DNA from: Caldilineaceae bacterium SB0661_bin_34
GTDB lineage: Bacteria > Chloroflexota > Anaerolineae > Caldilineales > Caldilineaceae
Assembly: GCA_009841145.1 (NCBI GenBank)
Contig: VXMJ01000072.1
Span: 1-64,000, forward strand
Length of the DNA stretch: 64,000 nt
Direction: 5' to 3'
Below the pieces are notes generated by a model. The model worked only from the letters and a program-made list of their open reading frames with translations, was not told the DNA's origin and did no database searches. Positions 1 through 2,115 of this stretch are shown piece after piece; the stretch's first letter is position 1, and every line of letters starts with the position of its first letter. A program made the position numbers and the translations under genes.

Positions 1-225
1 CTCCGTTGCCAAGCAGACCCAATCCTAACCGGCCGCGTTTTTCAGCAGCCTGCTAATAGTGTTTCCCAATCCGCCTTTGGTACATGTCCCGTGTCTGCTG
101 CACTATAGTGGGCTTGGCCTCGCAGCAACAGTGCTTGCCATTGTCGTCGGCACTGTCACGGGCATGCAATGGCTGTGTCGACGGTGGGTAGTGGGCGCGG
201 GTTTAGCGCGAACGGAGGTGGAGAG

Positions 226-2052
226 TTGACCCCCAGCAACGAGGCGTACCATGACACGGCGGTCCAGCAAGACCTGGATGCCCTGATCAACACCGTCCCG
301 GTGGGAGTGGCGGTCTTCGACGTGGCTACGGGGATGCCCCGGTACTTCAACCGGGAGGCCGGCCGCCTTGTGGACAAGCTGGCGGATCCGGGCCAGTCGC
401 CGGAGGACCTGCTGAAGGTGTTAACCTTCCGTCGGTCGGACGGCCGGGAGATATCGCTGTCGGAGTTTTCTTTGGCCCAGACCCTGGCCGCGGGCGAGAC
501 GGTGCGCGCCGAGGAGATTGTCCTGCAGGTGCCCGACGGGCGCCGGGTCACGATCCTGATCAACTCTACCCCGGTTCCCGCCGCAGAGGGCGGCGTGGCG
601 ACTATGGTGGTGACAATGCAGGATATGACGCCCCTGGAGGACTTGGCGCAGCGACGGGCCGAGTTCGTGGCCTTGGTGGGTCGGGAGTTGCGCGCACCGG
701 TGACATCGATCAAGGGATCCGCCGCCGCGGCGCTGCGGGCCGTTGACATGCGGGATCCGGCCGAGACGACCCAGTTATTCCACATCATCGACGACCAAGC
801 CGATCGCATGCTGGATCTGATCAGCGATCTGACTGATGCAGCCCGTCTGGACATCGGCGACCTCTCGGTTTCCCCCGAACCTTCGGATGTGGGCATGCTG
901 GTGGAACGGGCCCGTGCCGCCTTTCTCAGCACTGGGGGTCGTAACCACGTCTGTCTCGATCTGCCCCCAGACCTGCCGCGGGTGATGGCGGACTTTCGGC
1001 GCATTGTGCAGGTGCTGGGCAATCTCATGTCCAATGCGGAACGGCGTTCCCCGGAGTCTGCCGCTATACGGGTGGGTGCCGTGGCAGAGGGTCTTGAAGT
1101 GGCCATATCCGTCGCCGCCGCGGGCTCGGAAGTGCCACCCGAACATCTGCAGCACCTGTTCCAGAAGTTCGGCGACCCCAAGGACGGTGGCCGGTTGGGG
1201 CGAGGCTCTGGGCTGGGCTTAGCCATTTGCCGGGGTGTGGTGGAGGCCCACGGGGGGCGCATCCGGGCCGAGAGCGGCCCTAATCAGGGCATCCGGTTCA
1301 CCTTTACCCTGCCGACAGAAGTGGCGGTTCATTCCCCCGCGCCCGGTCGGCGGGCACGCGTGCTGGTGGTGGATGCCAACCCGGCGCACCTGCACCAGGT
1401 CCGCCGCGACCTCACGGACGCGGGTTATGCGGTGACCGCCGTCGGCGAGCCGGAGCAGGCCCTGCGCTTGATGGCGGAACAGCGACCCCATCTGGTGCTG
1501 ACGAGCCTGGAGCTGTCCGGCGTCGATGTCAACGCATTCATACAAGCCCTCCTAGGGGTGGCAGACGTGCCGGTTCTGTGTCTGTCCGACGCGGGGCGCG
1601 ACCAGGACATTGCAAAGGCCTTCGAGATGGGAGCCGATGACTATCTGGTCCGGCCCTACTCGCCCTCGGAACTGGCGGCCCGGATGCGGGCGGCCTTGGG
1701 CCGCCGAGCCGCGGCTCGGCCAACCGAGCCGTCCGAACCCTACATGAGAGGGGCACTGACCATTGACTTCACCCGGCGGTTGGTCACGATGGACGGCCAG
1801 CCGCTGCCGCTGACCGCTACCGAATACGGCCTGCTGGCTGAACTGGCTACCCACGCTGGCTCCGCACTTACCTACGATCATCTGTTGCAGCGCGTGTGGG
1901 GCTGGAATAATCCGGGCAACCCCTATGTGGTCCGCACCCACCTGATGCGGCTGCGGCGCAAGCTGGGGGAGGACGGACACAACCCTGCCTACATCCTCGC
2001 CGAGCCCCGCGTGGGGTACCGCATGGTTCCTCCTGACGAGGGACCGCTGTAA
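226..2052 (+). CDS. Hybrid PAS / histidine-kinase-like / receiver-like / OmpR-type DNA-binding regulator with degenerate phospho-sites
   Basis: The protein has, in order, a PAS-like sensor region (about residues 20-135), a HisKA-like helix pair (145-210), a HATPase with N-box LGNLMSNAERRSP and G2 box GSGLGLAIC, a receiver-like domain (380-495) and a C-terminal winged helix of the PhoB/OmpR class (510-600). It should act in the cytoplasm as a transcription regulator. The H-box reads VGRELRAP, so the phospho-accepting His is Arg (codon 682-684). The receiver reads LVLTSLELSG, so the acceptor Asp is Ser (1504-1506), and the conserved Lys is Arg (1651-1653). I chose the TTG at 226 because a strong GGAGGTG site lies seven bases upstream. 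An in-frame ATG at 169 lacks such a site but would add 19 residues. The domain order is clear; signalling by phosphotransfer looks impossible. Confidence 0.85.
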   Translation: MTPSNEAYHDTAVQQDLDALINTVPVGVAVFDVATGMPRYFNREAGRLVDKLADPGQSPEDLLKVLTFRRSDGREISLSEFSLAQTLAAGETVRAEEIVLQVPDGRRVTILINSTPVPAAEGGVATMVVTMQDMTPLEDLAQRRAEFVALVGRELRAPVTSIKGSAAAALRAVDMRDPAETTQLFHIIDDQADRMLDLISDLTDAARLDIGDLSVSPEPSDVGMLVERARAAFLSTGGRNHVCLDLPPDLPRVMADFRRIVQVLGNLMSNAERRSPESAAIRVGAVAEGLEVAISVAAAGSEVPPEHLQHLFQKFGDPKDGGRLGRGSGLGLAICRGVVEAHGGRIRAESGPNQGIRFTFTLPTEVAVHSPAPGRRARVLVVDANPAHLHQVRRDLTDAGYAVTAVGEPEQALRLMAEQRPHLVLTSLELSGVDVNAFIQALLGVADVPVLCLSDAGRDQDIAKAFEMGADDYLVRPYSPSELAARMRAALGRRAAARPTEPSEPYMRGALTIDFTRRLVTMDGQPLPLTATEYGLLAELATHAGSALTYDHLLQRVWGWNNPGNPYVVRTHLMRLRRKLGEDGHNPAYILAEPRVGYRMVPPDEGPL

Positions 2053-2082: not shown

Positions 2083-2115
2083 AGAGCCCCAATCCGCATT
2101 GTGGATTGGGGCTCT
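2083..2115 (+). terminator. Hairpin after the hybrid regulator
   Basis: A perfect 13-bp inverted repeat (arm AGAGCCCCAATCC) with a 7-nt loop begins 31 bases after the stop codon at 2052. There is no T-run after it, so it is either a T-less terminator or an mRNA 3-prime stabiliser. Confidence 0.6.

Follow-up and report, generated by a model that had tools for sequence, protein, structure and literature searches.

We have found that a gene of Caldilineaceae bacterium SB0661_bin_34 encodes a hybrid histidine kinase homologue in which the residues of phosphotransfer are replaced in donor and acceptor alike. The gene lies on the forward strand at 226..2052 of the window (the whole 64,000-nucleotide stretch of DNA analysed). 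Judged from its sequence, the 608-amino-acid product is probably a former hybrid histidine kinase that now works as a phosphate-independent one-component transcription regulator of the form PAS–pseudo-kinase–pseudo-receiver–winged helix-turn-helix (wHTH). Five changes, namely H-box His to Arg, G1-box Asp to Ala, second receiver acid from Asp to Ala, receiver Asp to Ser and receiver Lys to Arg, are identical in this protein and in its two congeneric orthologues, L001 from Caldilineaceae IRC1_bin_30 (genome G003; 91% identical) and L002 from Caldilineaceae bin34 (G001; 87% identical). The source of bin34 is the sponge Aplysina aerophoba (PMC5649159). Three related species, probably sponge-dwelling, retain the gene intact under selection.

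Translation is taken to begin at TTG 226. A probable ribosome-binding site, GGAGGTGGAG, stands directly before this codon (209..222, forward strand). Both orthologues keep the TTG and the site, the latter with a single mismatch in L002, and just upstream the alignment, made over the first 300 nt, breaks into indels. The protein is therefore 608 amino acids long, and residue numbers below refer to this form. An ATG at 169, from which the reading frame is also readable, was rejected as the start, neither it nor the upstream region being conserved. Because the start codon is conserved, the N-terminal GAF domain is excluded in all three orthologues; Pfam found none in the window protein or L001. 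Directly 3' of the gene is a hairpin formed by a perfect inverted repeat, GAGCCCCAATCC/GGATTGGGGCTC (2084..2114, no strand assigned), which is largely kept in L001 and L002 with few changes. Lacking a T-run, it is at most a possible terminator. A Mur ligase gene lies downstream. Among neighbouring genes, no conserved partner was found except copies of the hybrid family itself.

Pfam placed PAS, HisKA, HATPase_c, Response_reg and Trans_reg_C, in that order, in a single chain encoded on the forward strand. The PAS input domain (271..627) is a weak match (2e-5). The HisKA dimerisation domain (655..852; 4e-11) scored 43.3 bits against a cut-off of 26.9 despite R153 in place of the H-box His (nt 682-684), as in a pseudo-histidine kinase; the residue at H+4 is Ala157. 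In HATPase_c (991..1320; 4e-22) the N-box Asn, N270, and the G2 box are kept, the latter reading GLDL in one orthologue, and the G1 box carries Ala298 for Asp (nt 1117) and Glu302 for Gly (nt 1129). The receiver (1360..1686; 3e-15) scored 56.7 bits in PF00072 against a cut-off of 30.2, with the second acid replaced by Ala384 (nt 1375), the Asp by Ser427 (nt 1504) and the Lys by Arg476 (nt 1651), making it a pseudo-receiver; further changes are Tyr478 for Phe at K+2 and Cys452 for Phe. The chain ends in an OmpR/PhoB-type winged helix (Trans_reg_C; 1795..2025; 67.9 bits, 8e-19). With HisKA, HATPase_c and Response_reg all above Pfam cut-offs, the protein is a hybrid histidine kinase by homology; R153, A298 and S427, present in all three orthologues, set it apart from functional ones. 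No membrane segment was found, the sole hydrophobic peak being the receiver core, and the protein is soluble. The initial annotation, which had named the reading frame, the three phosphotransfer replacements, a degenerate G1 box and the persistence of N-box, G2 box and DNA-binding domain, was borne out in its coordinates and in every residue; A298 and E302, A384, the PAS domain and the missing GAF domain are additions to it. From these replacements we infer that phosphorylation and ATP binding have probably been lost.

Three separate assemblies agree on the five changes, so sequencing or assembly error is rejected. The locus is syntenic downstream among the orthologues; a fourth genome of the genus gave no match to the window protein. 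The orthologue clade (support 100) has a long stem (0.62) and short tips (0.06-0.09), and no frameshift or stop interrupts the gene in any of the three species. Values of dN/dS among the orthologues (Nei-Gojobori) were 0.215, 0.288 and 0.34 overall and 0.08-0.20 in the wHTH, compared with 0.09-0.31 for family pairs of more than 75% identity, almost all of them intact. The gene is under purifying selection, perhaps slightly relaxed, since the orthologue values are somewhat higher than those of most intact pairs. General decay of this copy, which had been named as grounds for abandoning the initial reading, was not seen, although His and Asp are present in homologues further removed. The proposal that the regulator does not work by phosphorelay is well supported by losses fixed in three species, a metal-binding receiver acid among them, and by purifying selection; its other half, that ligand-driven conformation takes over, is what we infer, and would be in keeping with the lack of change at conserved PAS and wHTH positions.

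The gene belongs to a paralogous Chloroflexota family of GAF–PAS–HisKA–HATPase_c–REC–wHTH proteins, with several copies in many genomes. Its members were collected by searching at family, class and phylum level and in genome contigs, and several of its named records are sponge bins (PMC5649159). When 100 distinct members were aligned, the phospho-His was His in 86 and the receiver Asp was Asp in 90, counts that are not population rates because the sample was uneven and picked by similarity to the window protein. As background, about 0.9% of HisKA domains are His-less and 2.0% of receivers Asp-less (PMC12632262). On a tree built without the His and Asp columns, His changed at least eight times, Asp at least six and both together four times, which shows that conversion to an apparently phosphate-dead form occurred several times in the family. 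The two losses were associated across raw sequences (Fisher p=0.0004) and not significantly so on independent pairs, which were too few. The window clade is sister, with support 96, to the group L003-L008, which is intact apart from one member with Gln for His. Intact Chloroflexota members (for instance L003-L008 and L009) are likewise soluble PAS–HisKA–HATPase_c–REC–Trans_reg_C proteins, 50-60% identical to the window protein, but differ in having GAF (in the Pfam-scanned members) and in keeping His, Asp, Lys, both acids and the G1 Asp.

Positions conserved in at least 95% of 82 intact members served as a reference for where the changes fell. The window clade has changed 0 of 20 such positions in PAS and 0 of 13 in the wHTH, against 4 of 17 in HisKA, 2 of 34 in HATPase (both in the G1 box) and 6 of 27 in the receiver. 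The core of kinase and receiver thus has 12 of 78 positions changed compared with none at either end (Fisher p=0.017), and at 11 of the 12 one common residue is found in all three species. Other members that have lost His or Asp show a like trend, with kinase and receiver degenerating and the wHTH kept, 0/13 of its positions being changed in all but one and 1/13 in that one. Such a pattern would be expected if input and output were retained while the chemistry was discarded. Untouched ends combined with targeted loss of chemistry help to tell repurposing from decay.

Among the matches of our search, the window genome (G000) holds one other full-length member and a lone receiver-wHTH gene. In the full-length member, L111 (G000:C62:46066-47874), Gln stands in place of the H-box His and the receiver Asp has become Ala, with Lys and the G1 Asp kept; by its sequence it is a putative independent double loss. 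The lone gene, L122 (G000:C53, 4747-5487), shares 88% identity with the C-terminal end of L119, an intact hybrid of G003, and its sensor-kinase part appears to have been lost in the window genome. A search of this genome for an Hpt protein found none. In G001 the dead copy is the only family member, so that an intact full-length partner from the family is not needed everywhere, allowing for genome gaps. Obligate pairing with an intact full-length paralogue was rejected, no such paralogue having been found in G000 or G001. An AlphaFold2 model (24 family sequences) had a mean pLDDT of 76.8 and a pTM of 0.50, values at which the domains are credible and the packing between them is unreliable. Foldseek matched it to WalK, LOV kinases, ShkA (6qrj), PrrA/KdpE, DivL and RitR, as expected from the domain content, and to NifL-NifA.

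Direct repeats with an 11-bp period (at least 8 of 10 matches) occur in 36 of 98 family promoters, compared with a mean of 9.4 and a maximum of 15 in shuffled sequences, and this period is commoner there than others. Such repeats are suggestive of tandem OmpR/PhoB-type operators and of autoregulation. The repeat is degenerate before the window gene (best 6/10), and both orthologues carry it. Their sequences are TTGGCACTGTATTGGCACTAT for L001 and TTGGCACTGGATTGGCACTAT for L002, and nothing else in either genome matches the searched pattern perfectly; a perfect copy of TTGGCACT-N3-TTGGCACT precedes solely the G001 and G003 orthologues and is absent from G000. One weaker match common to G000:C93 and G003:C262 has no clear gene start there. 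Sister-clade promoters carry GATAACnATATGGTAACA boxes, and those of L004-L008 have tandem GRTAACA boxes at 11-bp spacing, likely autoregulatory operators. As a regulon box, GRTAACA-N4-GRTAACA was rejected, being not enriched in the window genome (15 matches vs 29 for the reversed control). No target genes came to light. In its recognition-helix segment, RTHLMRLRRKLG, the window protein agrees with intact members of the sister clade.

A mechanism for the phosphate-independent regulator can be proposed from these features. The protein presumably dimerises, most likely via the HisKA helices, senses a signal through PAS and binds DNA. The signal, perhaps a small molecule or a redox change, would reshape the scaffold now formed by the kinase-like and receiver-like domains, and would thereby shift the seating of the two wHTH heads on tandem 11-bp direct repeats. 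With the N-box Asn still present and the G2 box largely so, weak nucleotide binding is possible. A phosphatase-only role is not favoured, H+4 being Ala rather than Thr or Asn, although this argument is weak, most intact members of the sister clade having Ala there as well.

The main competitor is a protein whose input is dead too, which would sit on DNA as a constitutive repressor or act as a dominant-negative, either occupying the operators of intact regulators or heterodimerising with them. The shared recognition helix would suit such a role, as would the fact that in other genomes degenerate copies adjoin intact ones (L008, L018 and L152). Against this, our search found no intact full-length paralogue in the window genome, G001 has the dead copy alone, and PAS retains every one of its 20 conserved positions, which together make it unlikely. 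We give less credence still to nucleotide sensing, in which HATPase would bind ATP or ADP and signal by conformation to the DNA head, as NifL does towards NifA. NifL-NifA is among the Foldseek matches, and the F-box and the N-box Asn persist, as does the G2 box for the most part, but the G1-box Asp, which contacts adenine in the HATPase fold, is Ala in all three species, the G1 Gly is Glu, and one species reads GLDL in the G2 box.

The relay might have given way to another kind of modification, such as phosphorylation of S427 in the Ser/Thr manner or redox chemistry involving Cys452. Ser427 is fixed in all three orthologues, as is Cys452, where intact relatives have Phe, and redox or Ser/Thr control has precedents in RitR and GlnR (PMC12632262); Cys452, however, lies by homology in a buried beta strand, and we regard this explanation as improbable. 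The least credible reading, for which very little room is left, is an early pseudogene drifting to loss. The genome of the genus without a match and a dN/dS of up to 0.34, near or above the top of the intact-pair range, would accord with it, but the frame is open in three species, dN/dS is well below 1, the wHTH is nearly unchanged and the replacement residues are identical in all three.

Precedents for the parts of a phosphate-independent hybrid are known separately, as pseudo-receivers, as pseudo-kinases and as the His-less hybrid BT4236. BT4236, a Bacteroides hybrid two-component system (HTCS) protein, has Gln for His and has been proposed to use a phosphorylation-independent mode (PMC11253607). 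Like the window protein, Bacteroides HTCS join kinase, receiver and DNA-binding domain in a single chain, but they are membrane sensors, whereas the window protein is soluble, has an OmpR-type head and has lost donor and acceptor both. HTCS heads are of the AraC type. Assignment to the Bacteroides type fails on two counts, the window protein having no membrane sensor and its head being Trans_reg_C. ChxR, HP1043, RitR, JadR1 and GlnR are mostly OmpR-type regulators whose receivers are without phosphorylation-site or other active-site residues (PMC12632262); these stand alone, whereas here the pseudo-receiver is fused to a pseudo-kinase and PAS. In the hybrid kinase ShkA of Caulobacter, a pseudo-receiver controls domain arrangement (PMC12632262). 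Unlike the window protein, ShkA functions as a kinase, has an additional receiver that is a true one, and carries no DNA-binding head. The DivL or NifL-like mode likewise employs a HisKA/HATPase core without His phosphotransfer, DivL being a Foldseek match of our model, but acts on separate partners, whereas the window protein has the output head in its own chain. In the open-access literature we found no description of a natural hybrid that has lost both donor and acceptor and carries an OmpR-type head.

We tentatively suggest that this largely sponge-associated Chloroflexota family repeatedly drops phosphate, with PAS input and DNA-binding output retained, and may contain an undescribed one-component class in which dead kinase and dead receiver serve as a joint allosteric transmission. 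How pseudo-receivers switch has been described as an open question (PMC12632262). With donor, acceptor, sensor and output in one chain, and with relatives that differ in what they have lost, the family offers a natural test series, which could be used to test conformation-only signalling through kinase and receiver folds and the conversion of a phosphorelay into a one-component system. In one pair of members, L167 (G007:C25) and L177 (G005:C139), His has become Arg and the ATP site is wholly degenerate; the receiver Asp is kept in one and is Ala in the other, so that the order of decay can be read. In the clade of L154, L155 and L156, His is intact and the receiver Asp has become Asn.
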